A DNA stretch of 64,000 nucleotides from Arthrobacter sp. ISL-72 (GTDB taxonomy: Bacteria > Actinomycetota > Actinomycetes > Actinomycetales > Micrococcaceae): NCBI RefSeq assembly GCF_018613755.1, contig NZ_JAGGPP010000023.1:1-64000 (forward strand), in the 5' to 3' direction. A program made the translations under genes and the position numbers. This document shows positions 6,744-38,117 of this stretch, piece after piece; the stretch's first letter is position 1; each line of letters begins with the position of its first letter. The notes beneath the pieces were generated by a model. The model was not told the origin of the DNA. It did not search any database and saw only the letters and a program-made list of their open reading frames with translations.

Positions 6744-7445
6744 CTACACGAGCGGCCACGGGTAACGCATGCCGGTCGGGTCAACAGGCAGCACCCCTTC
6801 CTGCAGCAGGCGCCGCACCCGCCGCTTCAGGGCGGTCACCTCCGCGTCGTCGAGGAGCCCGGCCACCGCGGGCGGCACGGCCTCCGCGAGCGGGGTGATG
6901 TCCTCGAGCAGCGCACCGGGGATGGGTTCGCCCGCGAAGTCCCAGATCACGGTGCGGAGTTTGAAGCCCGCCGAGAAGCACAACCCGTGGTCGATGCCCC
7001 ATACCCGTCCGTCGTCGCCGCGCAGGACGTGTCCGCTCTTGCGGTCCGTGTTGTTGGTGACGCAATCGAACAGGGCGATCTGCAGCAGGATGCGGTGGGT
7101 CTCGGGTGAGTCTGCGTAGAGGGTGAAGTAGTGCTCATGCTGGTCGCCTGCAACGAACCACTGCAACGATCCGATCCCCAAGGGAGCTTCAGCGCGGATC
7201 ACGGTGGGCGGCACGATTCCCCACTCCAGGTACTCACTCAGCAGGTAGGCAGCGCGTTCCCGACGGTACAGCCCCGGCTCGAAATCGTAGAGCGGCCGTT
7301 CCCCGGCCTCCGGCTTGTACACCGCCCACGCTGCCTCGTCGCCGCAGGAGACCTGGGCGAGGAGCGTCGCATTGCTGCCGCGCGGGATGCGTCCGAGCAG
7401 CTCGACACGGCCCTCGGTGAGCAGCGTCAGCTCCCGCCCGGACAC
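6744..7445 (-). CDS. SCO1664-family conserved actinobacterial protein (PI3/PI4-kinase-like fold)
   Basis: A 233-residue cytoplasmic protein matching the conserved actinobacterial SCO1664 family, which has remote similarity to phosphatidylinositol 3/4-kinase-like proteins. Visible family stretches are VYKPEAGERPLYDF near the N-terminus, DRKSGHVLRGDDG and the HG-containing WGIDHGLCF, which resemble kinase catalytic-loop and metal-binding segments. It starts at GTG 7445 behind GAGAGG. It lies 27 bp downstream of the histidine phosphatase gene, the usual partner. The third member of the known actinobacterial trio, DUF3090, is not between them. Function is unknown. Confidence 0.75.
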   Translation of the reverse strand: MSGRELTLLTEGRVELLGRIPRGSNATLLAQVSCGDEAAWAVYKPEAGERPLYDFEPGLYRRERAAYLLSEYLEWGIVPPTVIRAEAPLGIGSLQWFVAGDQHEHYFTLYADSPETHRILLQIALFDCVTNNTDRKSGHVLRGDDGRVWGIDHGLCFSAGFKLRTVIWDFAGEPIPGALLEDITPLAEAVPPAVAGLLDDAEVTALKRRVRRLLQEGVLPVDPTGMRYPWPLV

Positions 7446-7472
7446 CGTCTGCCTCTCGTCACGGCGCCCTCT

Positions 7473-8132
7473 TCACGAGGCCCTCAGCCGACTCAGGGGT
7501 TCCGACGTCGAATTCACCATGAGCACGGCGGGCGCCTGACCCTCCACATACGAGATGGCCGAAACCGACCCGGGGCTAATGACAATCCGCTGGAAGAGGT
7601 CCAGATGAGTGCCCAGGGCGTGGGCGACGGCGGCCTTGATCGGGTCGGCGTGCGAAAAGCACGCAACCACGCCTCCGGCGTGGGCCGCACACACTGCCTC
7701 GAGCGTTCCGACCATCCGCGCCTGCATCTGGGCGAAGCTTTCCCCGTTCGGGAAGCGGAAGGCTGACGGCGTGTGTTGCACGGTCTGCCACTCCGGAAGG
7801 CTCACCAGTTCCGCGAGCGCGGCGCCGGTCCACTCGCCGAAGTCGCACTCGATCAGGCCGGCGTTTTCGTTCACCCCGAGCCCGGCGGAGGTTGCGGCGG
7901 GCTCTGCAGTCTCCCGGGTGCGCTCCAGTGGTGAGGAGTAGACGGCGTCGACCGTAAGGCCCAGAAGCCGTTCCGCGACCCGTTCGGCCTGGGCCCGGCC
8001 CCGGTCGGACAGATGCAGTCCCGGTGCCCGCCCGGGCAGCACCGCGCCCGTGGTGGGAGTTTCCCCGTGGCGCACCAGAAGGAGGAGGGTGCTCTCCGGT
8101 CTCCGGGGTGCCGGCGCTGTTGGTGCAGTCAT
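7473..8132 (-). CDS. MSMEG_4193-type histidine phosphatase
   Basis: A 219-residue member of the phosphoglycerate-mutase-like histidine phosphatase superfamily. The catalytic RHG motif is in LLVRHGETPTTG near residue 20, the second Arg/Glu part in SSPLERTRETA, and the second catalytic His in CFSHADPIKAAVAH. Start is ATG 8132; a longer open frame upstream overlaps the divergent AAA+ gene and has no support. The family occurs with SCO1664-type proteins across Actinobacteria. The substrate is not known. Confidence 0.8.
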   Translation of the reverse strand: MTAPTAPAPRRPESTLLLLVRHGETPTTGAVLPGRAPGLHLSDRGRAQAERVAERLLGLTVDAVYSSPLERTRETAEPAATSAGLGVNENAGLIECDFGEWTGAALAELVSLPEWQTVQHTPSAFRFPNGESFAQMQARMVGTLEAVCAAHAGGVVACFSHADPIKAAVAHALGTHLDLFQRIVISPGSVSAISYVEGQAPAVLMVNSTSEPLSRLRAS

Positions 8133-8228: not shown

Positions 8229-9617
8229 GTGAGTGATCGTCCCGATATCTTCACCGTTGGAGAACTGCGTGCGGCCGGCCACGTCCACAAGGACCTGCGC
8301 CACGAAATCCGCGATAACCTGCTCGCCGCGCTCGCCGGCGGCCGCGATCCCTGGCCCGGAATGTTCGGGTTCAGCCGGACCGTCCTGCCGCAGCTCGAGC
8401 GTGCCTTGATCGCCGGGCACGACGTCGTCCTGCTCGGCGAACGGGGGCAGGGCAAGACCCGGCTGCTCCGCACCCTGGCCGGGCTGCTGGACGAGTGGTC
8501 GCCGGTGATCGAGGAATCGGAGCTCAACGAGCACCCGTACGAACCAATCACCGAGCAGTCCCGCGCCCGCGCCCTCACCGAAGGGGACCGGATGCGCGTG
8601 GCCTGGCGCCACCGCACGGAACGCTACGTCGAAAAGCTCGCGACGCCGGACACCTCTGTTGCCGACCTTATCGGCGACGTCGACCCCATGCGCGTGGCCG
8701 AGGGCCGCCGGCTCGGGGACCCCGAAACCATCCACTACGGCCTCGTCCCGCGCTCCAACCGGGGGATCATCGCCATCAACGAGCTGCCCGATCTCGCAGA
8801 GCGGATCCAGGTGGCGATGCTCAACGTGATGGAGGAACGCGATATCCAGATCCGCGGCTACGTGCTGCGGCTGCCGCTTGATGTGCTCGTCGTCGCGTCC
8901 GCCAACCCGGAGGACTACACGAACCGCGGCCGGATCATCACGCCCCTGAAAGACCGCTTCGGCGCGGAGATCCGTACGCACTACCCGATCGAACTTGAAG
9001 ACGAGGTGTCCGTCATCCGGCAGGAGGGGAAGCTGGTGGCCGACGTCCCGCCCGTCATCCTCGAGATCCTGGCCCGCTACACACGGGCGCTGCGGCAGTC
9101 CCCGGCCATCAACCAGACCTCCGGGGTCTCCGCACGGTTCGCCATCGCGGGCGCCGAAACCGTCGCCGCGGCGGCCCTGCGCCGGGCAAGCATACGCGGC
9201 GAGGACGAGGCCGTGGCGCGGATCATCGACCCGGAGCCCGCAGCCGAAGTCCTCACAGGGAAGATCGAGTTCGAGTCAGGTGAGGAAGGACGCGAGCAGG
9301 GCATCCTCGACCACCTCCTGCGCACAGCCACCGCCGAAGCCGTGCGGGCGCACTTCCACGGCATCGACATGGGCCCACTCGTCGCGGCACTCGACGGCCA
9401 CACGACCGTGACCACCGGGGAACAGGTCACGGCACGGGAGTTCCTCGAGAATCTCCCGCCCCTCAACGGATCCACTCTCTACGACAAAATCAGTGAGCGC
9501 CTTGGCGCGAAAAACGACGGACAGCGCGCCGCCGCCGTCGAACTTGCATTGGAAGGGCTTTACCTCGCCCGGCGGATCTCCAAGGAGTCCGACGACGAGG
9601 AAACGGTCTACGGCTAA
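8229..9617 (+). CDS. Magnesium-chelatase-like AAA+ ATPase
   Basis: A 462-residue AAA+ protein. Walker A is GERGQGKT at residues 70-77. The Walker B region reads IIAINEL (N184, E185), with Asn where most AAA+ proteins have Asp; my recollection is that the Rv0958-like family shares this. The sensor-1 stretch VVASANPEDYTNRGRI and arginine-containing LKDRFGAEIRTH follow. I chose GTG 8229 because it gives the family-like start VSDRPDIFTVGELRAAGH; a TTG 48 bp upstream is possible. The VWA gene follows 30 bp downstream, as in ChlI/ChlD-like pairs. It is not a chlorophyll enzyme; a protein-remodelling role is inferred. Confidence 0.8.
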   Translation: MSDRPDIFTVGELRAAGHVHKDLRHEIRDNLLAALAGGRDPWPGMFGFSRTVLPQLERALIAGHDVVLLGERGQGKTRLLRTLAGLLDEWSPVIEESELNEHPYEPITEQSRARALTEGDRMRVAWRHRTERYVEKLATPDTSVADLIGDVDPMRVAEGRRLGDPETIHYGLVPRSNRGIIAINELPDLAERIQVAMLNVMEERDIQIRGYVLRLPLDVLVVASANPEDYTNRGRIITPLKDRFGAEIRTHYPIELEDEVSVIRQEGKLVADVPPVILEILARYTRALRQSPAINQTSGVSARFAIAGAETVAAAALRRASIRGEDEAVARIIDPEPAAEVLTGKIEFESGEEGREQGILDHLLRTATAEAVRAHFHGIDMGPLVAALDGHTTVTTGEQVTAREFLENLPPLNGSTLYDKISERLGAKNDGQRAAAVELALEGLYLARRISKESDDEETVYG

Positions 9618-29538: not shown

Positions 29539-30684
29539 GTGACATTGCTGATTGCTGATCCCGTTGTGAAGGCCGACCGGAAAGACACCCGGCCGGGGCG
29601 GTTGGACGGCCTGGATGTTCTCCGGGGCGCTGCCGTGGGTGCCGTTTTGCTGGGACATTCCTGGCCTGGGGTATTTCAAGGTGCCGGAATCGTCGGCGTC
29701 ATCGTCTTCTTCGTGCTGAGCGGTTACCTGATCACGGGCGTACTGGCCAACGACGTCGAACGGCATGGCAAAGTGCGGTACGGCCGTTTTTACGCACACC
29801 GCGCCTTGCGCCTGTTGCCGGCCCTCATTGCGTTTCTTGGCGTGTATGCGATGGTGGAATTTGCGGCCGACGTCCTCGGCGATCGCTCCAAGGGAATCAT
29901 CGGATATACCCTTCTTGCCGGCTTCGGCTACCTGAAAGACCTACCGTTGCCGTTTGATGTCAGCATGGCCATCGGGCCGCTGTGGACGCTGGCCGTCGAA
30001 GAACAGTTCTATCTCGTCTGGCCGGCACTGTTGGTGCTCGCCCTGCGGCGGAACCGCCAGTCGCGCCTGATCGGCTGGTCCGCCGCCGTCGTGTACTCCC
30101 TTATGGCCGCGAGCGTGCTGGGGATGCTGATCCTGGCGCCGCACCTTCACTCCCTGGTCTACGCTCTTCCGACGACGTGGGGCCTTGGGCTGATCATCGG
30201 TTCCGGACTGCGCCTGTTCAGGGAGCGAGTGTTCAGCTGCTTCGCCGGGCCTCGTGCCCGGTCGGCGGCTTGGTTTGGCTCGGTCCTTGTCCTGGCCGCC
30301 TTGGCGTTCGTTCCCCGGGCCAACGAATCACCGGCCTTCTTCTTCGTGGGAGGCCCGCTGGCCATGGCTGCCGCCGGCGTCCTGGTGGTACTGGCTGCCT
30401 CCCGTACACGCGCCATGCCGAAGTGGACGCGCACGCTGCAGCTCCTGGGCACGGTTTCCTACGCTGCCTACCTTTGGAACTACATCGTCATTCTCTGGCT
30501 CAACGGCGGATCCACGGCTGATCTGCCGCCCGGGGTGGCCGTGTCCGCAATCCTGCTGACGCTGCTGCTGGCGGTCATCAGCTGGCACACGGTCGAAAAG
30601 CTGGGACGCAGGGGCCGCGACCGCTTCGATAGGTACTATCAGGAACGGATCGACGACGGCGACACTACGTTTCGTGGGTCGTAG
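29539..30684 (+). CDS. Membrane acyltransferase (acyltransferase 3 family)
   Basis: A 381-residue protein with about ten transmembrane segments. The family start is LDGLDVLRGAAVGAVLLGHS, with the conserved Arg and His, followed by FFVLSGYLI, RFYAHRALRLLPAL and AVEEQFYLVWP. Such proteins move acetyl or other acyl groups onto surface carbohydrates or peptidoglycan. GTG 29539 follows AGGAGG. The 220 bp before it hold no gene. The 3' end overlaps the convergent VWA gene by 20 bp. The acceptor is unknown. Confidence 0.85.
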   Translation: MTLLIADPVVKADRKDTRPGRLDGLDVLRGAAVGAVLLGHSWPGVFQGAGIVGVIVFFVLSGYLITGVLANDVERHGKVRYGRFYAHRALRLLPALIAFLGVYAMVEFAADVLGDRSKGIIGYTLLAGFGYLKDLPLPFDVSMAIGPLWTLAVEEQFYLVWPALLVLALRRNRQSRLIGWSAAVVYSLMAASVLGMLILAPHLHSLVYALPTTWGLGLIIGSGLRLFRERVFSCFAGPRARSAAWFGSVLVLAALAFVPRANESPAFFFVGGPLAMAAAGVLVVLAASRTRAMPKWTRTLQLLGTVSYAAYLWNYIVILWLNGGSTADLPPGVAVSAILLTLLLAVISWHTVEKLGRRGRDRFDRYYQERIDDGDTTFRGS

Positions 30685-31861
30685 CGATGTCGTGCGAGGC
30701 GGCCCATTCGCTGACGTCCCGGCGCTCGATCGCGGCTGCCATCAGCTCGGGAAACAGATCCGGGGTGCAGGCGAAAGCGGGGACGCCGATTCCGGCGAGG
30801 GCCGCGGCGTGGTTCGAATCGAACGTGGGATGGCCGCTGTCGCTCAGGGCCAGCAGCGCGATCAAGCTGGCCCCGGATTCGACGATTTCGGCGGCACGCC
30901 GCAGCATCTCCTCCGCTATTCCGCCCTCGTAGAGATCGCTGATCAATACCAGAATCGTCTCCGCCGGCCGGGTGATCTGCGCCTGGCAATAGGCCAGCGC
31001 CCGGTTGATATCGGTACCGCCGCCGAGCTGCACGCCAAAGAGCACGTCCACCGGATCATCCATTTCATCAGTCAGGTCCACCACCTCGGTGTCAAAGACC
31101 ACCAGCCGGGTGCGCACCGCCGACAGCGAGCTCAACACGGCGCCAAACACGCTCGAATACACCACCGATTCGGCCATGGAACCGGACTGGTCGATGCACA
31201 GGATGATCTCACGCTGCACCTCGGTGCTGCGCCGGGCGTAGCCGACCAGCCGCTCGGGCACAACTGTGCGGTAGTCGGGCTGGTAGTTCTTGAGGTTCGC
31301 CGCGATGGTGCGGTTCCAGTCAATGTCCCGCTGCCGGGGCCGCCGGGTGCGGGCCGCCCGGTTCAATGCTCCCTCGACAGCCTGAACCGTCTTGGCGCGC
31401 AGGCGTTCCTCCAACTCACTGGTCACCTGCCGGACCACCGCCCGGGCAGTCTCGCGGGAATGCTCGGGGATAACCCGGCCCAATCCGACCAGCGTGGTGA
31501 CCAGGCTGATATCGGGCTGCACTGTGCGCAGCATCTCCGGTTCGAGGAGGAGCTGCCGCAGGCCGAGCCGCTCCATGGCGTCGGCCTGCATCACCTGAAC
31601 CACGGTGGAGGGGAAATAGCCCCGGATGTCGCCAAGCCACCGGGCTACCCTCGGGCTGGACGCGCCGAGTCCTCCCGGTCCCGTTTTCGTGGTCCCGTAC
31701 AGGTCCTCCAAGGCACTGTCGCGGCGGGCATCGGCGGCGGAGAGCTCCACGTACTGACCGTCCTCCGTGGTGATGCCGTCCGCCTCGTGCGCGCCGAGCA
31801 CCAGGCGCCAGCGGCTCAGCCGGTCGCGGCCGTCACGTCCATCAGTGTCCGCGTCGGTCAC
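30665..31861 (-). CDS. VWA-domain protein of the five-gene MoxR operon
   Basis: A 398-residue protein with an Arg-rich helical N-terminal half and a C-terminal VWA domain. The MIDAS is complete: DQSGS (D224, S226, S228), GGGTD (T283) and ISDLYEGG (D309). I chose GTG 31861, because GGAGG lies 7 nt upstream and it forms a GTGA overlap with the preceding gene; ATG 31876 is the alternative. It is the last gene of the operon. With the MoxR ATPase it should act as a metal-dependent adaptor for a remodelling machine, inferred from other MoxR-VWA pairs. Confidence 0.78.
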   Translation of the reverse strand: MTDADTDGRDGRDRLSRWRLVLGAHEADGITTEDGQYVELSAADARRDSALEDLYGTTKTGPGGLGASSPRVARWLGDIRGYFPSTVVQVMQADAMERLGLRQLLLEPEMLRTVQPDISLVTTLVGLGRVIPEHSRETARAVVRQVTSELEERLRAKTVQAVEGALNRAARTRRPRQRDIDWNRTIAANLKNYQPDYRTVVPERLVGYARRSTEVQREIILCIDQSGSMAESVVYSSVFGAVLSSLSAVRTRLVVFDTEVVDLTDEMDDPVDVLFGVQLGGGTDINRALAYCQAQITRPAETILVLISDLYEGGIAEEMLRRAAEIVESGASLIALLALSDSGHPTFDSNHAAALAGIGVPAFACTPDLFPELMAAAIERRDVSEWAASHDIATTHET

Positions 31862-34140
31862 GCGATCGCCTCCCATCCCAGATACCCGGCCATTCTGCGG
31901 ACAGCCGGGCCCGCACCTTGCAGATCAAGCGTGGCCTCACCCGGGCCTTGCGCGGGTCCGGGTCCGCGGCTCACCTGCTCGCCGATCTCCCGCCGCTCAG
32001 GACGGCTGAACGCGGAAAATGTCCTGCGCAGCAGTGGAAGGACGTCGTCGAAGACTTCGTCCCGCACTCCGGTAAGCCAATCATCAACGATCTGCAGGAT
32101 GTGTCGATCGTGAATCAGCAGCACTGCGTCGCCGGACAAAAGTCCGTCCAGCCACGCCGCGGCTTCGGGGGCAGGCGTGGCGACCGACAGCCGGCGACTG
32201 AGCCGGGCTGCAACCTCATCACGCTCGACCAGGCCCGCGTCCAGGAGCAGGCGCGTGGCCCGGCCGGCGATCGACCCGTGGATCCGGTCCGAACCGGCAA
32301 CGGCAGCCAACGCCCGGTGCCAGTCATCCAGGGTCAGCTCCGATAACAACGACAGGCCGTACTGCGCGGAGTCGACAGCGCGCCGCATGGCTGTCGCGGC
32401 GGCATCGTCCAGCCCGGCGCAGGCAACGGGCAGGCCGACGCAGGCCCGTATCAGTGTCGCGTCCAGGATTCTTTGCACCCCGGTGACGTCCACTCCGCGC
32501 ACATTGCCGTACCGGAGGGTCCGGGCAAGCGGGGCTATGGTTTCCAGCAGCGGGCCCACATCCTGCTGCAGCGCTGTCCGTTCTGCCAGCACCGCTACCA
32601 CGGCGCTGATTCCGTCCGGCAGGTCGGCGAGCAGGCAACTGGCGAGCAGTTCGCTGAGGTCGGCCAGGCTTCCGGCAACCCGGGCGCGTTCCGCCACACA
32701 GGCCGCCGCTGCCGCCGCCAGGGTGGTGCCGTAGCGGCTGGCGTCCACTACAGCGACAGTCAGTTCCGGCTGCCAGAGGAGAGTCCACACTTCCTTGAAG
32801 GTCCCCGTGGTCCGGCCGGTGTCCGCAGGCGTGCCCCAGTTCACCCCGAGCAGGGCCAACCGGTGCAGCAGGACCGAACGGGCCAGCTGAGCCGGCTTGC
32901 GGAGGTCGATCGTGAGGAACTCCTCCAGCGCACTGGGTTGCAGGCGCAGCCTGCGCTGGGTCGCGGCGAGGTCAGCGGCCAACGGGACGCTGGGCGTGGA
33001 CTCCGGCACGCTGCCTAGACCGTGCCCAACGGCAAGCTCGCGGTGCACTAATGCCAGGGGAAGAGCTGAGCCGTCGCAGAGAACGGCTTGGGCGGCGTCG
33101 TCCAGCTCCGCCAGGCCAGGGCTGGGCCGGCCGCGGACGGCGGCCAGCGCGTTCGCCATGCGGCTGGCCTCCACCACCGAAGCCGTCGAAGCGTCGAGCT
33201 TTTCCCGACGCAGCGTTTGTGCGACCCGGACCAGCCAGGTGGTGGCCACATCAGCCGTGGAATCCGGGGCCGTCCAATGGGCGAACAGATGCTGATACCA
33301 GCCGGGTGCGGCGACGCCTGCACCGTACCCGGTCTGCAGGCGGAGCCGATCCGAGGTCCACGGCACCCACGTGACAGCGACCTTGGTCCTGGGCAGACCG
33401 GCCAGGACCTTGTTGTCTGCGGACGCCGGGGGGAAGTGCGCCGGAACCAGCGCGGGGGCGTGATAGGCCCCGCACACCACGGCTATGCGCGCATGCCCTT
33501 CGCGCATGGCGGCCCGCAGCAGCCGCCGCATCCCGGCTTCGCGCCGGTTGTTCTCGACGACGTCCGGGTGGTCGGCGGGCCGGTTGTTCTCGACGACGTC
33601 CGGGTGGTCGGCGGGCCGGTCGTCAACCGCGCGGATTTCCGCGATGGCCTCGGTAATGGCCGCGAACCTCTCGAGGGGGTCGGCAGTGCGGTGCTCGACG
33701 GCGTCCTCCCACCAACGCTCGGCGTCGCCGTACCCCGCAGCCTGGGCCATCATCGCAATCGCATCGGGCCGGTAGGGCTGCTGCGGCGACGCAGCGGGTT
33801 CGGCGGCGGCGGCCAGGTCCAGCGCGAAGCTGTGCCCCGCGGCAAGGTCGATGGTCCGCGCCGGAGTTCCCGTCGAAGCAGCCCAGCGGAAAGCCACCCA
33901 CTCCGGGGAGAAGTCCGCCAGCGGGTAGAACGAGGCCAGCCTGGGCTGGTCGGACACATAGATGAGCCCCGCCACGGGCGGCACCATCGCCGGATCGGAA
34001 AGCAACGGAACAACCTGGTCGAGCTCGGGCGGGCCTTCGATCAGCACCAAGTCCGGGCGGAGGGTTGACAGGGCCTCCGCTACAGAGCGCGCTGAACCGG
34101 GCCCATGGTGCCGGATCCCTAGGACGTGGACGTCTGTCAT
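31858..34140 (-). CDS. DUF5682-family protein, possibly related to TraB/EreA/ChaN enzymes
   Basis: A 760-residue soluble protein. The first 40 residues hold LGIRHHGPGSARS (H11, H12) and LVLIEGPPE (E35), and near residue 223 is VVCGAYHAP. The order HHG, EGPxE, GxxH resembles the TraB/Tiki/EreA/ChaN superfamily, so a hydrolase or esterase activity is possible; this is my inference. The C-terminal two thirds are Ala/Leu-rich and helical. A 36-bp tandem duplication adds 12 residues near position 180-200. It lies 3 bp after the MoxR gene. The family is of unknown function. Confidence 0.72.
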   Translation of the reverse strand: MTDVHVLGIRHHGPGSARSVAEALSTLRPDLVLIEGPPELDQVVPLLSDPAMVPPVAGLIYVSDQPRLASFYPLADFSPEWVAFRWAASTGTPARTIDLAAGHSFALDLAAAAEPAASPQQPYRPDAIAMMAQAAGYGDAERWWEDAVEHRTADPLERFAAITEAIAEIRAVDDRPADHPDVVENNRPADHPDVVENNRREAGMRRLLRAAMREGHARIAVVCGAYHAPALVPAHFPPASADNKVLAGLPRTKVAVTWVPWTSDRLRLQTGYGAGVAAPGWYQHLFAHWTAPDSTADVATTWLVRVAQTLRREKLDASTASVVEASRMANALAAVRGRPSPGLAELDDAAQAVLCDGSALPLALVHRELAVGHGLGSVPESTPSVPLAADLAATQRRLRLQPSALEEFLTIDLRKPAQLARSVLLHRLALLGVNWGTPADTGRTTGTFKEVWTLLWQPELTVAVVDASRYGTTLAAAAAACVAERARVAGSLADLSELLASCLLADLPDGISAVVAVLAERTALQQDVGPLLETIAPLARTLRYGNVRGVDVTGVQRILDATLIRACVGLPVACAGLDDAAATAMRRAVDSAQYGLSLLSELTLDDWHRALAAVAGSDRIHGSIAGRATRLLLDAGLVERDEVAARLSRRLSVATPAPEAAAWLDGLLSGDAVLLIHDRHILQIVDDWLTGVRDEVFDDVLPLLRRTFSAFSRPERREIGEQVSRGPGPAQGPGEATLDLQGAGPAVRRMAGYLGWEAIA
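33544..33615. repeat. Two tandem 36-bp units inside the DUF5682 gene
   Basis: Two identical 36-bp copies (33544-33579 and 33580-33615), with a short partial third, encode the 12-residue unit RPADHPDVVENN twice. The frame is kept. The region lies in a charged loop between the EGPxE and GxxH motifs. It looks like a recent slippage duplication. Confidence 0.9.
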
Positions 34141-34143
34141 GAA

Positions 34144-35253
34144 TCAGTTCGGGGTCTCGAAGTCGCGGCAGGCCCTGTAGAGGTCCTTCCACTCGGGTCG
34201 GTTGCGGACCACGGTTTCCAGGTATTCCTGCCAGATCACCCGGTCCTGAACCGGGTCCTTAATCACCGCTCCGACCAGGCTGGCCGCCACGTCCTCGGCG
34301 CGGACGCTGCCGTCGCCGAAGTGGGCTGCCAGAGCCAGGCCGTTCGTCATGACCGAGATCGCTTCCGCTGTGGACAGGGTTGCTGACGGCGATTTGAGGG
34401 TGGTGCGCTGGTCCTGGGTCACGCCGGCGCGCAGTTCCCGCATCACTATGACCACCCGGCGGATCTCCGAGAGCGCCGAAAGATCAGCCGGAAGCTCGAG
34501 TGCTGCGCCAAGGCTGCGCACCCGGGTGGTGACAATCTCGACCTCCTGGTCAAGGCTGTCCGGCAGCGGCAGCACCACGGTGTTGAACCGGCGGCGCAGC
34601 GCAGATGACAGGTCGTTGACGCCCTTGTCGCGGTTGTTCGCGGTGGCGATCACATTGAATCCCTTGATCGCCTGCACCTCCGTATTAAGTTCGGGGATGG
34701 GCAGGGTCTTCTCGCTCAGGATCGTGATGAGGGAATCCTGTACGTCCGACGGGATCCGGGTGAGCTCTTCCACGCGCACCAGGCTGCCGGACTCCATGGC
34801 ACGCATCACCGGACCTGCCACCAAAGCCGCCCGGGATGGGCCGTCAGCGAGCAGTCGTGCATAGTTCCAGCCGTACCTCAGCGCCTCTTCCGGCGTGCCT
34901 GCTGTGCCCTGCACCACCAGCGTGGAGGTGCCCGAGATTGCCGCCGCAAGATGCTCGCCGAGCCAGGTCTTCGCGGTACCCGGCACGCCGAGCAGCAGCA
35001 GCCCGCGATCGGTCGCAAGGGACGCCACGGCCATTTCCACCAGCCGGGCCGAGCCCAGGTATTTCGGGCTGACCTGGGTGCCGTCCGGCAGCGTGCCGCC
35101 AAGGATGTAAGTGGCCACTGCCCAAGGGGAAAGCCGCCAGCTGGGCGGCCGGGGACGATCGTCGACGGCGGCAAGGGCCCGGAGTTCGTCGGCGTAGGCG
35201 GTTTCCGCGTGGGCGCGGAGAATCCCCGGAGCAGCAGTCTGGGCATCGGTCAT
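34144..35253 (-). CDS. MoxR-type AAA+ ATPase of the five-gene operon
   Basis: A 369-residue MoxR-group AAA+ protein. Walker A is GVPGTAKT at residues 89-96. The Walker B region reads SLVRVEEL (E162, E163), with Glu where Asp is usual. Sensor 1 is NVIATANNRDKG, and an arginine-rich ALRRRFNTVVLP follows. ATG 35253 overlaps the DUF5691 stop by 4 bp, and it is followed after 3 bp by DUF5682. MoxR ATPases are chaperones that usually work with VWA proteins; one is encoded at the end of this operon. Confidence 0.83.
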   Translation of the reverse strand: MTDAQTAAPGILRAHAETAYADELRALAAVDDRPRPPSWRLSPWAVATYILGGTLPDGTQVSPKYLGSARLVEMAVASLATDRGLLLLGVPGTAKTWLGEHLAAAISGTSTLVVQGTAGTPEEALRYGWNYARLLADGPSRAALVAGPVMRAMESGSLVRVEELTRIPSDVQDSLITILSEKTLPIPELNTEVQAIKGFNVIATANNRDKGVNDLSSALRRRFNTVVLPLPDSLDQEVEIVTTRVRSLGAALELPADLSALSEIRRVVIVMRELRAGVTQDQRTTLKSPSATLSTAEAISVMTNGLALAAHFGDGSVRAEDVAASLVGAVIKDPVQDRVIWQEYLETVVRNRPEWKDLYRACRDFETPN

Positions 35254-36746
35254 CGGAAGGCCTCCGTCAGCGATTGTCGGAACGATTGGTATTGCACGAC
35301 GTCACGAAACACGCGGCGCCGCGGGGCGTAGTCGTCGGAACGTTGGAGCAAGCGGCGGCACTGATCGGCCGTGTCCGACGGCAGCGCCGTCGGCAGGACC
35401 GCGGACAGCATTGTCGCCAGCTGGGCGCCGTTCTTTGCGGCGAGCAGCTCGAGGACCGCGTTGGCAAGTGGCGCGCTCCACGGCCTCTGCAAGTCGCGCA
35501 GCAACGGGACCAGTGCCATCGGCTGGGCCGTTCCGCTGCGGATATGGCGCAGCAGCGCCTGCTCGCGTTCGGCCGGCGCCAGGCAACCAAGCAGCCGCGC
35601 GTCGGTGCGGACACCGAGCAGCGCGCGCACCCACTCGGCGTCGTCGCGGAGGGCCGCTGTCGCGACTATTGTGTCGATGACGCGCGTTTCGCCGTCGAGC
35701 ATTGCCAGCGTCGCGGCAGTGCTGCGGTCGGCCGCCGCCGTCCAAACCTCGAGCGGGGCCCCGCGGATGATCGTGGCCAGCCGCCCCAGCCGGTCGGGTT
35801 CGCCGGTTCCGGGGGCAGGGGAAATCCCGTCGCGCAGGCCTGAGGGGTCAGGATCGGGCGGCAGGTCGATCTCGAACTGCTTCCGCAGCAAGCCTTTGAC
35901 GCGCAACAGTGTTTTGAGCCGGGCGGCCATGCGGCTGGCCCGGGCGCTCGTCGGGAGCCGGTCGAGCAGGCCGGCGGCGACATCCCGCACGCTCTTTGCC
36001 TTGTCGTCCAAGGCTTTTTCCAGCAGGTCTTCGTCGGCGGGTTCGAGGTTGATGGCGAAGACGGCCAGATGGGCGGCGCGTTCCCTGGCGCCGAGCGTAT
36101 CCCAGTGGGTGTGCAGCCGGTCGCGGGCGGCGGACGGGTCGCTGCCCCGGAGCCGTTCCAGTTCCGCAGTGGCGTCAGCCGTCCTCAGCCCGGCCCAGTC
36201 GACCGTCGCCGTGGGATTCGCGCCGGAGTCCCCGGGCCCGGAACCGTCTGGAGCGGGCCCCTGCCGCCCGGAGCCCTTTTGCCGGAGGCCCTGGAGCCAG
36301 CGGCCCCGGACTCCGATGGCCGGATGTGCATGCTCCGCCACGGACGGCCTTGCGTCAGCCAGGGCGAGCAGTGCAGGGAGCAAGCCGTGTGGAACCCGCT
36401 GTCCGGACGCAGCCGCGAGCTGCAGCCAGTCTGCCACCAGCTGCGTGCGTAGCTCGGGTCCAACCGGGGGCTGGTTGAGCAGCAGGTCCAACAGCCGCGC
36501 GGCGTCAGCGGAGGCCAGCGGGGCATCGTCCGGGGGTGCCGGATCAGGCAGCCTGCCGGTATCCAGCAGATCGGGGCGGCGGGCAGCACGGGTGGCGACA
36601 TCGACCAGTGCCGCCTGGTCCAGCAAAAGCTCCTCGCGCGAAAGGCCCTCGGGCGGGCGGAACTCCAACTCCGAGGGTGGAGCCGGCACCGGGTGCCGGC
36701 CGGTGCCAACGAGCGCCGAACTGCGGATGTCTGCCAGCCAGGTCAC
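35250..36746 (-). CDS. DUF5691-family protein, helical repeat-like
   Basis: A 498-residue Ala/Leu/Arg-rich protein, probably all helical and HEAT-like. The N-terminus LADIRSSALVGTGRHP is the most family-like part. A Gly/Pro-rich linker occurs around residue 160-185. No catalytic motif is visible. GTG 36746 forms a GTGA overlap with the SWIM gene, and its stop overlaps the MoxR start. It is best seen as a scaffold of the MoxR/VWA system, but that is a guess from context. Confidence 0.7.
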   Translation of the reverse strand: MTWLADIRSSALVGTGRHPVPAPPSELEFRPPEGLSREELLLDQAALVDVATRAARRPDLLDTGRLPDPAPPDDAPLASADAARLLDLLLNQPPVGPELRTQLVADWLQLAAASGQRVPHGLLPALLALADARPSVAEHAHPAIGVRGRWLQGLRQKGSGRQGPAPDGSGPGDSGANPTATVDWAGLRTADATAELERLRGSDPSAARDRLHTHWDTLGARERAAHLAVFAINLEPADEDLLEKALDDKAKSVRDVAAGLLDRLPTSARASRMAARLKTLLRVKGLLRKQFEIDLPPDPDPSGLRDGISPAPGTGEPDRLGRLATIIRGAPLEVWTAAADRSTAATLAMLDGETRVIDTIVATAALRDDAEWVRALLGVRTDARLLGCLAPAEREQALLRHIRSGTAQPMALVPLLRDLQRPWSAPLANAVLELLAAKNGAQLATMLSAVLPTALPSDTADQCRRLLQRSDDYAPRRRVFRDVVQYQSFRQSLTEAFR

Positions 36747-38041
36747 GGCGTCACCACCGCTCCCTCGATGACCACGGACAGGGGCCGCACGCGGCCCTCC
36801 TCGAGTTCTCCAAAAACGTTGACCGGGTGGCTGCCGGTGAGCGCCAGCAGGGAGTCCATGGCCGCGCCGACCAGCGGGAGGGCGTCGCCGGAACCATCCC
36901 GGAGCCAGCCAGCCTCACCCGGGCAGACGCGGACTCCGGCGAACAGCACAGGGTGGCGCTCGCGCCAGGGTGACAGCGCCACCGCGGCCGATTCCATATC
37001 CAACGCTTCGGCAATGCTGCAACCCTCACCGAGGCTGCCGGCCAGTCCACGCGGGGCCAGGGGACTGGTGAACATTGCCCGCTGCGGCGCGGAGCCGGGA
37101 TACCGCGCCACCGTGACGTCCAACAGGGCGCCCGCGAGCTGGGGTGTCGCGAGTGCTTGACCCTGGGCAGCGAAATCGAGCACGACCACCACCGTTCCGT
37201 CCGGGCCGCGAAGCCAGGTGCGCTGCTGCTGGAGCCGTCCGTCATCGCTGCGGTGGGCGCCGAGCACCAGCCATGGACCGGGAAGTGATTCTGCGGCATG
37301 GACCTCGGCCGACGCCGTCGCCCATCCGACTGCCACCCGGAGATCGGCAAACTCGTCGGGGGTCAGTTGGTCCCGTCTGCTCCAGGCCTTGGTCATTGCC
37401 CACCAGCGGCCGCTCCGCAAGAGCAGGTGGTCCGCCCAGTCGGCCCGCGCATGGATGTCCGAACCCATGGCCCGCACCTGTTCGGCCAGGCCCGGGAGCT
37501 GGGCGTCGACCAAGCGCCCGGCGACGCCGTCCCACCAGGAGTACGGCTGGTTGTGCGCAGAGGCCAGCCCGGTCCGGACGAGATCGGTCAACCAGCGGGC
37601 GAAGTCGGCGATCCCCGCGTCCATCAGCGTGAGCCTGTCGGAAAGCCGCTTGGCCTGTGCCACGGGATCCGTCTGCTGCTCCGACTGGCGGCGCTCCCGG
37701 GTGGCGGCCCGGTCTGCACGCTGGGCTGCCCATTCCTCAGCGAAGCCGGCAGTCTCCACGCCGGCGGCGGCAGCTTCCTCCCGGGCCCACAGAAGGAGGA
37801 GCGCCAGCGCGTGTTTGCACGGGAACTTCCGGCTGGGGCACGAGCATCGGTAGGCGGGGGCGGCAATGTCGACGCTCACCTGATAGGGAGTCTTTCCGCT
37901 GCCCTGGCACTTACCCCAGACCAGGACGTCATTGCTGCCCGTATCGGACCAGGGGCCCGGACGTGCCAGCTTTCGGGCGGCCGCCAAGGAAGATGCGTCG
38001 GGCGCTGCGCCGATCACCCTCTCCTCGCTCCAACGCCCCAT
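36743..38041 (-). CDS. SWIM zinc-finger protein, first gene of the five-gene operon
   Basis: A 432-residue protein with a SWIM finger near the N-terminus: CSCPSRKFPCKH uses C66, C68, C75 and H77 (CxC-x6-CxH). The rest is Ala/Trp-rich without known motifs. I use ATG 38041, giving the family-like start MGRWSEERVIG; an ATG three codons upstream (38050) is possible. Neither has a strong ribosome binding site. SWIM fingers bind DNA or proteins, so this may be the target-recognition part. It is divergent from an exonuclease-like gene with a 76-bp gap. Confidence 0.72.
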   Translation of the reverse strand: MGRWSEERVIGAAPDASSLAAARKLARPGPWSDTGSNDVLVWGKCQGSGKTPYQVSVDIAAPAYRCSCPSRKFPCKHALALLLLWAREEAAAAGVETAGFAEEWAAQRADRAATRERRQSEQQTDPVAQAKRLSDRLTLMDAGIADFARWLTDLVRTGLASAHNQPYSWWDGVAGRLVDAQLPGLAEQVRAMGSDIHARADWADHLLLRSGRWWAMTKAWSRRDQLTPDEFADLRVAVGWATASAEVHAAESLPGPWLVLGAHRSDDGRLQQQRTWLRGPDGTVVVVLDFAAQGQALATPQLAGALLDVTVARYPGSAPQRAMFTSPLAPRGLAGSLGEGCSIAEALDMESAAVALSPWRERHPVLFAGVRVCPGEAGWLRDGSGDALPLVGAAMDSLLALTGSHPVNVFGELEEGRVRPLSVVIEGAVVTP

Positions 38042-38117
38042 AAAACACATTCTGCCCGACGTCCGGCGCTATGCAAGATATACGTTGCAACCACACGAAT
38101 CCGTGTCAGGATCAGTT

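Follow-up and report, generated by a model that had tools for sequence, protein, structure and literature searches.

A conserved five-gene operon of Arthrobacter sp. ISL-72 combines a MoxR–VWA pair with a DUF5682 protein of predicted TIKI/EreA/ChaN fold and is related by sequence to E. coli yehL, yehM and yehP

What might five adjacent genes without an assigned function do together, when they encode a SWIM zinc-finger protein, a DUF5691 protein, a MoxR-type AAA+ ATPase, a DUF5682 protein and a VWA protein? We examined such a set, all on the minus strand, in a 64,000-nucleotide stretch of the Arthrobacter sp. ISL-72 genome (the window; Table 1). Read from the DNA, the SWIM/DUF5691 and DUF5682/VWA junctions are GTGA overlaps, the DUF5691/MoxR junction is an ATGA overlap, and MoxR and DUF5682 are separated by a 3-bp gap (TGA-TTC-ATG), which confirms the one-direction, overlapping operon of the original prediction. 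Since the last junction reads GTGA, the VWA gene is taken to start with GTG at 31861 (the ORF is open over 30665-31876), and for the SWIM gene the start at MGRWSEE is made plausible by its homologues, whose consensus begins near that RW. A scan for promoters and terminators gave results near chance, with one promoter-like site (0.5 in shuffles) and four terminator-like sites (3.3 in shuffles).

Table 1. Features of the operon, with positions in the window
Feature	Position	Strand	Remarks
SWIM zinc-finger protein	36743..38041	-	ATG start 38041; ORF runs to 38050; Pfam SWIM 3.3e-07
DUF5691 protein, possibly HEAT-like scaffold	35250..36746	-	Pfam 1.8e-98
MoxR-type AAA+ ATPase, YehL homologue (40% identity)	34144..35253	-	Pfam AAA_5 1.1e-37
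DUF5682 protein, YehM homologue	31858..34140	-	Pfam DUF5682 3.5e-235
VWA protein, CoxE-like, complete MIDAS, YehP homologue (34% identity)	30665..31861	-	VWA_CoxE 3.4e-54
DUF5682 motif GxRHHGPGS, residues 8-16, first GxxH, directly after strand 1	34093..34119	-	
DUF5682 Glu35, where strand 2 ends; candidate partner of first His	34036..34038	-	
DUF5682 second GxxH, G224-H227, after strand 218-224	33460..33471	-	
Intergenic stretch between the divergent SWIM and 5'-3' exonuclease genes; presumed to contain the promoter	38042..38117	-	no consensus match there

The five genes form a real unit, with an order kept in several bacterial phyla. In a genome scan, all five were found in identical order and on the same strand in 75 of 80 loci (the best 80 of 455 confirmed relatives, a sample that for this reason favours close relatives), and short contigs account for three of the five loci without the full set. 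The three junctions that overlap in the window do so by 4 bp in 65, 66 and 64 of the 75 complete loci as well, counts that somewhat favour overlaps as the script picks the start nearest the upstream stop. Such agreement in order, strand and overlaps shows that the arrangement is not due to chance. All 18 sampled genomes with DUF5691 above cut-off also contain DUF5682 (18/0/3/275, Fisher p 4.7e-26). The joint conservation that had been anticipated for the five genes is thereby borne out.

Some variant loci carry fusions. DUF5682 and VWA are fused in L144 and L145, with both RHH and DxSGS retained, and SWIM and DUF5691 share one frame in L105, L140 and L147 (the L147 frame is without the zinc finger). 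Judged from these sequences, the fusions suggest that the machine has two physical submodules, DUF5682-VWA and SWIM-DUF5691.

By sequence comparison, the MoxR-DUF5682-VWA core is homologous to the products of E. coli yehL, yehM and yehP (DUF5682 shares 28% identity with YehM over 596 columns; Table 1 gives the other two values). Matches to the yehLMPQ segment occur in 5301 of 5426 complete genomes of E. coli, so that the locus is nearly universal in this species, and dispensable. The original prediction had not mentioned this homology.

We counted conserved residues over the window and the 75 complete loci, adding the E. coli protein for three families. The MoxR Walker A lysine, the E-E of Walker B, the sensor Asn and the RRF arginines are invariant in 77 of 77 sequences, the MIDAS residues of VWA are invariant over 76-77 sequences (the MIDAS is complete, as had been proposed), and so are the SWIM ligands CxCx6CxH in 76/76. 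The key residues of MoxR, VWA and DUF5682 hold from E. coli to an acidobacterium, and for SWIM the same is true across the 76 sequences of the window type. The nearest PDB sequence relative of MoxR is midasin (3e-19). DUF5691 is the fastest evolving of the five proteins; 6 of 18 members have weak HEAT matches (best 0.024) and 3 of 18 have HEAT_2 matches (best 0.0033), none of them being the window's own protein, and the family is possibly a HEAT-like scaffold.

DUF5682 was proposed to resemble TraB/EreA/ChaN enzymes, and here the evidence divides between predicted structure and sequence profiles. A second look at the full-length model with VIA placed the N-domain on 7w5z_E (Z 9.7), a chain that we infer to belong to the TIKI/EreA/ChaN superfamily, and matched the C-terminal part to HEAT/ARM solenoids (families missing from the VIA lists may still be related). 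Following this result, residues 1-300 were modelled alone (pLDDT 86.9, pTM 0.88). In the structure comparison of this N-domain model, 7w5z_E again comes first, and chains of the superfamily, among them ChaN (Z 8.5), HopBA1 (7.6), EreC (7.0), Bcr135 (6.5) and RRSP (5.3), take all places above the first unrelated chain, 9mmh (Z 4.6); most have Z below 8, only four chains reach that value and, as the tool warns, lower values may reflect merely a common arrangement. Foldseek with the N-domain against the PDB returned nothing at E <= 0.001 (best 7.8e-3, probability 0.97), and with the full-length model it was uninformative. DUF5682 is thus predicted to have a TIKI/EreA/ChaN fold at about residues 1-260 and a HEAT-like solenoid at about 490-753, a fusion that, together with the encoded MoxR-VWA pair, sets it apart from RRSP, EreC, HopBA1 and ChaN.

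At the level of profiles, DUF5682 is not a member of the TraB/GumN, ChaN or Ere families, as the matches lie within noise. Among 42 DUF5682 members (alignments A3/A4, i.e. the window and 41 of the 80 loci, omitting L046 and L098, where DUF5682 is split over two frames, and other loci, many of which are closely related to rows retained), Pfam TraB reached 0.014 in one member and ChaN 0.068 in one, Ere had no match up to E 1, and the unrelated DUF2868 scored better (0.0019). A sequence link to TraB was tried and rejected: YbaP against A4 gave E 0.041 with probability 1.3 over 29 columns at the second GxxH, which is not significant. PDB sequence searches returned only two weak matches with YbaP, both with E above 0.5, and only chance matches with A3.

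The placement of the candidate catalytic residues agrees with the predicted fold. G224 and H227 are invariant over 76-77 sequences, as are H11, H12 and E35 except in one gapped row. In the model these residues place a His-Glu pair and an additional His at the ends of core strands, where they were expected. In RRSP and Bcr135, according to passages of PMC6254334, a His follows strand 1, a Glu ends strand 2 and a His follows a later strand, a His-Glu-His layout that the DUF5682 N-domain matches. The catalytic Glu that RRSP has two residues before its first His is without an obvious equivalent in DUF5682, where Ile9/Arg10 are found. This is one reason to consider a catalytically dead DUF5682, in which the fold would do no more than bind a client or metal, leaving the machine a pure remodeller; PMT, described in the same paper, has a TIKI-type fold that has lost its catalytic residues, and the RHH motif is absent from the frame of one divergent copy, L146. 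We regard this as very unlikely, given that H11, H12, E35 and H227 are unchanged across Actinobacteria, Cyanobacteria, an acidobacterium and E. coli. In the divergent fused copies the narrow pattern CG[AG]xH, written for the second GxxH, had no match.

Taken together, the best reading of the operon, at a probability of about one half, is that of one cytoplasmic ATP-driven remodeller (MoxR-VWA) with a TIKI-fold hydrolase and a SWIM-DUF5691 recognition scaffold, serving ordinary or stress physiology; a remodeller acting with a putative hydrolase had been the original prediction as well, and the fusions tie the parts physically. This reading builds on the gene set and its order, the co-occurrence, the invariant residues, the fusions and the YehL/M/P homology. 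MoxR-vWA pairs are described as client-capturing remodellers in section 8 of Kaur et al. 2020 (PMC7159879). We infer a division of labour in which MoxR would form an AAA+ ring and work together with the VWA protein, whose MIDAS would capture an extended client segment. VWA would be tightly coupled to DUF5682, and the N-domain of the latter may hydrolyse a peptide or ester bond of the presented client by means of the His-Glu pair and the second GxxH His, with the C-terminal solenoid as a putative docking platform. A second submodule, evolving faster, would consist of SWIM and DUF5691 and serve client recognition and scaffolding. A string of genes without an assigned function is in this way turned into a testable machine with an AAA+ ring, a VWA adaptor, a TIKI-fold hydrolase whose candidate catalytic residues can be named, and two submodules.

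The operon could also encode an ATP-dependent protease of new architecture, an idea we hold to be unlikely, in which the MoxR ring and VWA adaptor would feed a TIKI-fold peptidase on the HEAT platform and client choice would lie with exchangeable zinc-finger/HEAT modules (SWIM-DUF5691 in one branch; in the yeh branch, DUF4132 together with a SWIM protein that is unrelated). Were the hydrolysis proteolytic, the operon would represent a kind of ATP-coupled protease not recognised so far, to be ranked with Clp, Lon, FtsH and the proteasome and carried by nearly every E. coli.

CoxD-CoxE, NorQ-NorD and RavA-ViaA share with the operon a MoxR protein and a VWA_CoxE-type VWA, and the operon might by comparison be a maturation chaperone, whose MoxR-VWA pair reshapes a metalloenzyme so that its cofactor can be inserted, while the ChaN-like domain of DUF5682 binds haem or metal without hydrolysis. 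The VWA_CoxE match of the VWA protein (Table 1) and a NorQ match of MoxR (2.3e-07) fit this explanation, as does the binding of haem by ChaN, a non-hydrolytic member of the fold (title of 2g5g). The yeh locus adjoins DUF4132/WGR genes, among them molR, which has been linked to the use of molybdate, and copper-evolved E. coli acquired mutations in yehM according to passages of PMC12409786. However, the operon differs from the three pairs in adding a hydrolase-fold subunit and SWIM-DUF5691, and no client metalloenzyme gene stands out among the flank clusters (taken without one-by-one annotation), nor are there molybdenum/copper hydroxylase genes among the eight window neighbours. A Deinococcus paper reports no change in moeA, moeB and other molybdate genes, and DUF5682 keeps the His-Glu-His set, like the hydrolytic members. 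We find a chaperone of this kind doubtful.

The operon had originally been framed as a biological-conflict system, in which SWIM/DUF5691 would sense, MoxR-VWA would switch and DUF5682 would be the effector, whether against phage or otherwise. MoxR-vWA pairs are indeed the core of proposed conflict systems (PMC7159879), and the distribution over the genus is patchy, with full-length copies in 9 of 61 genomes plus one relic. DUF5682 occurs on 36 of 72,556 plasmid records, some of them chromosome-sized, with L110 lying beside type I restriction genes, L105 beside a PDDEXK nuclease and a recombinase, and L108 near a toxin-antitoxin pair and transposases. Against this, PADLOC-DB 2023 gave no match above noise for the five proteins, the yeh-type proteins or the eight neighbours (best scores: IetA with E 0.013 on MoxR, REase_II with E 0.062 on YehL), and a viral_contigs scan had no relative among 35 candidate stretches. 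One of 50,697 phage records matched, a 14-kb scaffold from faeces, itself unverified, that carries MoxR-DUF5682-VWA. In the window, the operon has metabolic and regulatory genes of ordinary kinds as neighbours, and the operon or relic lies within 15 kb of one same gene in all 10 genus members having either. The homologous and near-universal yehLMPQ has 5320 chromosomal places in E. coli versus 2 on plasmids.

Composition argues in the same direction. The ternary systems of Kaur et al. likewise have a third partner with MoxR and VWA, here encoded between the two; in those systems it is VMAP, iSTAND, FtsH or a beta-propeller, none of which was found above cut-off in the five proteins by the Pfam scan, and the MoxR protein scores below the bpMoxR cut-off. 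Instead of the variable partner first proposed, the third partner is constantly DUF5682. No swapped effector was seen, the same five families being present in 75 of the 80 loci (best 80 of 455), and among the matches listed for flank ORFs of at least 120 aa no extra family occurs in more than 12 loci. Kaur's systems have variable effectors, whereas the five-gene operon shows none and has a homologous core in E. coli. After these searches we gave the conflict reading lower weight; it is not supported by them and appears improbable, and we favour ordinary or stress physiology over mobile anti-phage defence.

Among the literature matches listed, there was no functional study of DUF5682, yehM or the yehL-yehQ segment; "YEHP" in PMC8940909 is a growth medium, the YehQ of PMC8163845 was matched in an entrapment database, and PMC6442406 is a strain list. 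The E. coli operon shares the core order MoxR-DUF5682-VWA with the window's and also encodes a SWIM protein, but its SWIM gene (yehQ) comes last, and full homology of the two SWIM proteins is rejected by a sequence comparison that finds the zinc finger alone in common. DUF5691 is absent from E. coli in a control search, and DUF4132/WGR genes lie upstream. DUF5691 and DUF4132 were considered as homologous alternatives and rejected, with a profile comparison probability of 0.2 and no detectable kinship. In some loci the two hold a similar place upstream of MoxR.

The five genes on the minus strand of the window, in the order SWIM, DUF5691, MoxR, DUF5682 and VWA, were confirmed by ORF calling, Pfam searches and inspection of the junction DNA, in agreement with the original prediction of their families and junctions (GTGA or ATGA overlaps at three, and a 3-bp gap between MoxR and DUF5682). 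Using a seven-member DUF5682 alignment as the query of a genome scan, we obtained at least 594 pattern matches and at least 455 relatives confirmed by tblastn. When the loci of the best 80 of these relatives (71 actinobacterial, 8 cyanobacterial and 1 acidobacterial) were searched with the five window proteins, all five genes were found in 75, with identical order and strand in every one, as expected if the genes are conserved together. Three of the five exceptions (L055, L070 and L080) are short contigs. The three overlapping junctions of the window have 4-bp overlaps in 65, 66 and 64 of the 75 loci, and the gap between MoxR and DUF5682 is at most 30 bases in 54. In the DNA examined at two cyanobacterial loci (L101 and L102, the latter close to a contig end), DUF5682 is the only one of the five genes present.

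Coordinates of the operon and of related features (L-numbers are loci from other genomes)
Feature	Sequence	Coordinates	Remark
Five-gene operon	window	30665-38041	minus strand
MoxR gene	window	34144-35253	Walker B end at residues 162-163
Tandem duplication	window	33543-33620	in DUF5682 gene; 36-bp unit, 2.2 copies, 100%
Gene for extra 78-aa protein	L106, Deinococcus taeanensis	7765-8001	between MoxR and DUF5682; no Pfam family
Gene for extra 203-aa protein	L105, Hymenobacter	7371-7982	between MoxR and DUF5682
Operon relic	L022, genome G042 of the window's genus	8230-8843	DUF5682 608-675 and VWA 248-401 left

DUF5682 is found in 21 of 296 sampled genomes of the phylum, and DUF5691 exceeds the cut-off in 18 genomes of a same-sized draw, all among the 21 if the draws are taken as identical (Fisher p 4.7e-26, which overstates independence since the sampled genomes are related). 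Among 14 control genomes, E. coli and Deinobacterium chartae contain DUF5682, and only the latter contains DUF5691. Correlations between pairwise distances are 0.95-0.97 among SWIM, DUF5691 and DUF5682 and 0.75-0.87 for other gene pairs, values that shared descent alone can yield. No widely recurrent extra family was seen among flanking ORFs of at least 120 aa, a limit that small proteins would escape: no cluster listed exceeds 12 loci, and the one found in most groups comprises 6 loci from five of them. The five genes form a genuine, widely conserved set, whose MoxR-DUF5682-VWA core is homologous to an E. coli operon without assigned function.

In the full-length DUF5682 model (pLDDT 89.7, pTM 0.83), an alpha/beta N-domain is followed by a long helical stretch towards the C-terminus, and residues 1-300 modelled alone reach pLDDT 86.9 and pTM 0.88. 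The proposed resemblance to EreA and ChaN holds in the TIKI/EreA/ChaN fold of this predicted N-domain, with ChaN (2g5g, Z 8.5), HopBA1 (5t09, Z 7.6), EreC (6xcq and 6xcs, Z 7.0 and 6.6) and RRSP (5w6l, Z 5.3) all ranking above the first unrelated structure; the row after RRSP is 9mmh (Z 4.6). Other matches are 7w5z_E and two further Tetrahymena complex IV chains (Z 9.5-10.0), 2qgm (Z 6.7), Bcr135 (3b55 and 2rad, Z 6.5 and 6.4) and 6a7h (Z 5.9; a bacterial protein toxin with RRSP's numbering). Only four chains reach Z 8, and the Z values come from VIA, which examines Foldseek's own candidates only (best Foldseek E 7.8e-3). The available text of PMC6254334 places ChaN, HopBA1, Bcr135 and RRSP in the TIKI superfamily, and EreC can be added because the Ere family is named there; 7w5z_E and 2qgm probably belong to it as well. 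In the model, H11/H12 follow strand 3-9, E35 closes strand 31-35 and H227, the end of the second GxxH motif, follows strand 218-224, the same layout as the His-Glu pair and second His described for RRSP and Bcr135 in that text. For the Glu that precedes the first His of RRSP by two residues, DUF5682 shows no evident counterpart; the positions two before H11 and H12 hold Ile and an invariant Arg. The candidate residues H11/H12, E35 and H227 are invariant in all 42 aligned members and, bar one gapped row, over 77 sequences including YehM. Residues 490-753 of the full-length model match HEAT/ARM solenoids with middling Z values, such as are common for repeats. That DUF5682 is a non-catalytic scaffold seems to us quite improbable. 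The best-supported mechanism, to which we assign a probability of about 0.5, is a MoxR-VWA remodeller coupled to a predicted TIKI-fold hydrolase.

The MoxR protein has midasin and NorQ as its nearest PDB sequence relatives, and the operon might, though this is rather unlikely, encode a maturation chaperone. Walker B motifs usually end in Asp-Glu; here the ending is Glu-Glu, invariant in 77 of 77 sequences including YehL, and the MIDAS of VWA and the SWIM ligands are also invariant in the conservation alignment. Mean distances range from 0.27 in MoxR, the slowest-evolving protein, to 0.61 in DUF5691, the fastest, a pattern in keeping with a conserved motor and a recognition side that varies.

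Fusions provide the best evidence here that the proteins act as two physical submodules, DUF5682-VWA and SWIM-DUF5691. DUF5682 and VWA share one frame in second copies at L144 (1492 codons) and L145 (1355 codons); both keep the RHH motif (with H11/H12) and the DxSGS of MIDAS, and a narrow pattern did not find the second GxxH in them. A single frame encodes SWIM and DUF5691 in Hymenobacter (L105; E 3.5e-79 for its SWIM part by profile comparison), Nocardia farcinica (L140) and L147, the last with only the C-terminal portion of the SWIM protein, without the zinc finger. In two Streptomyces-like genomes (L142 and L143) SWIM-DUF5691 and MoxR-DUF5682-VWA are divergently transcribed. Such genomes also carry extra divergent copies, including the L144 and L145 fusions and L146, with the order VWA-MoxR-DUF5682 and a DUF5682 frame lacking the RHH motif.

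In E. coli K-12, MoxR, DUF5682, VWA and SWIM correspond to yehL, yehM, yehP and yehQ (yehL, yehM and yehP products 40%, 28% and 34% identical to the window proteins). A second architecture combines the core with DUF4132, which lies upstream in E. coli (yehK between), Iodobacter and two genomes of the window's order (L020 and L021), and between DUF5682 and VWA on a Sinorhizobium plasmid. HEAT_2 matches below cut-off occur in the L020 and L021 DUF4132 proteins and none in YehI; profile comparison detected no homology between DUF4132 and DUF5691.

Within the genus, 9 of 61 genomes carry full-length copies and one (G042) a relic about 4 kb from an exonuclease gene; this gene, which adjoins the operon, is no more than 15 kb away in all ten. 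The acyltransferase and exonuclease genes adjoin in 2 of 8 operon-free regions (about 0.9-1.0 kb between aligned parts, no recognisable operon relic), and the flanking acyltransferase could not be located in the other 6. The best fit is a conserved locus that was lost repeatedly, the alternative being a local hot-spot. Of 5426 E. coli genomes, 5301 match the yeh segment (5162 over at least 80%); according to the accessible part of PMC10652928, the reduced-genome strain DGF-298 lacks it through deletion, so it is dispensable there.

The five-gene set is also present on annotated plasmids of Deinococcus, Rhizobium, Methylosinus (VWA not annotated, HMM fragments spread over several frames) and Hymenobacter; the extra proteins of L106 and L105 are possible additional subunits. 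PADLOC models gave no match at E 0.001 to the eight neighbours of the window's operon (short-chain dehydrogenase, saccharopine-type dehydrogenase, TetR and LacI regulators, acyltransferase, 5'-3' exonuclease, PRC-barrel/DUF2382 protein and sugar transporter), and a conflict system appears doubtful. An E. coli conjugative resistance plasmid (L141) carries the chromosomal yehI-yohO stretch between two IS26 copies, which looks like incidental capture, and an unverified 'Bacteriophage sp.' faecal scaffold (L111, MT835988, 14,207 bases) with only MoxR-DUF5682-VWA may be a mislabelled bacterial fragment.

Full-text searches of partial literature (most subscription papers lie outside it) brought up, among the papers listed, no study that gives DUF5682, DUF5691 or yehLMPQ a function, and the words SWIM, EreA, TraB and yehM are absent from the available text of a 2020 MoxR-vWA census (PMC7159879). 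Excerpts of three papers report yehM mutations in copper-evolved E. coli (PMC12409786), 1.8-fold lower yehP in simulated microgravity (PMC3589462) and a DUF4132 protein and a WGR protein in the Deinococcus DdrO/IrrE DNA-damage regulon (PMC8533742); these are weak hints at physiology, and none yields a function. The window's genome is Arthrobacter-like, judged by its nearest named relatives. Its single DUF5682 copy contains a perfect tandem duplication repeating 12 residues (RPADHPDVVENN), which looks recent because in relatives its HPDV core is present once (L025, L027 and L053) or not at all (L024, L026 and L052).
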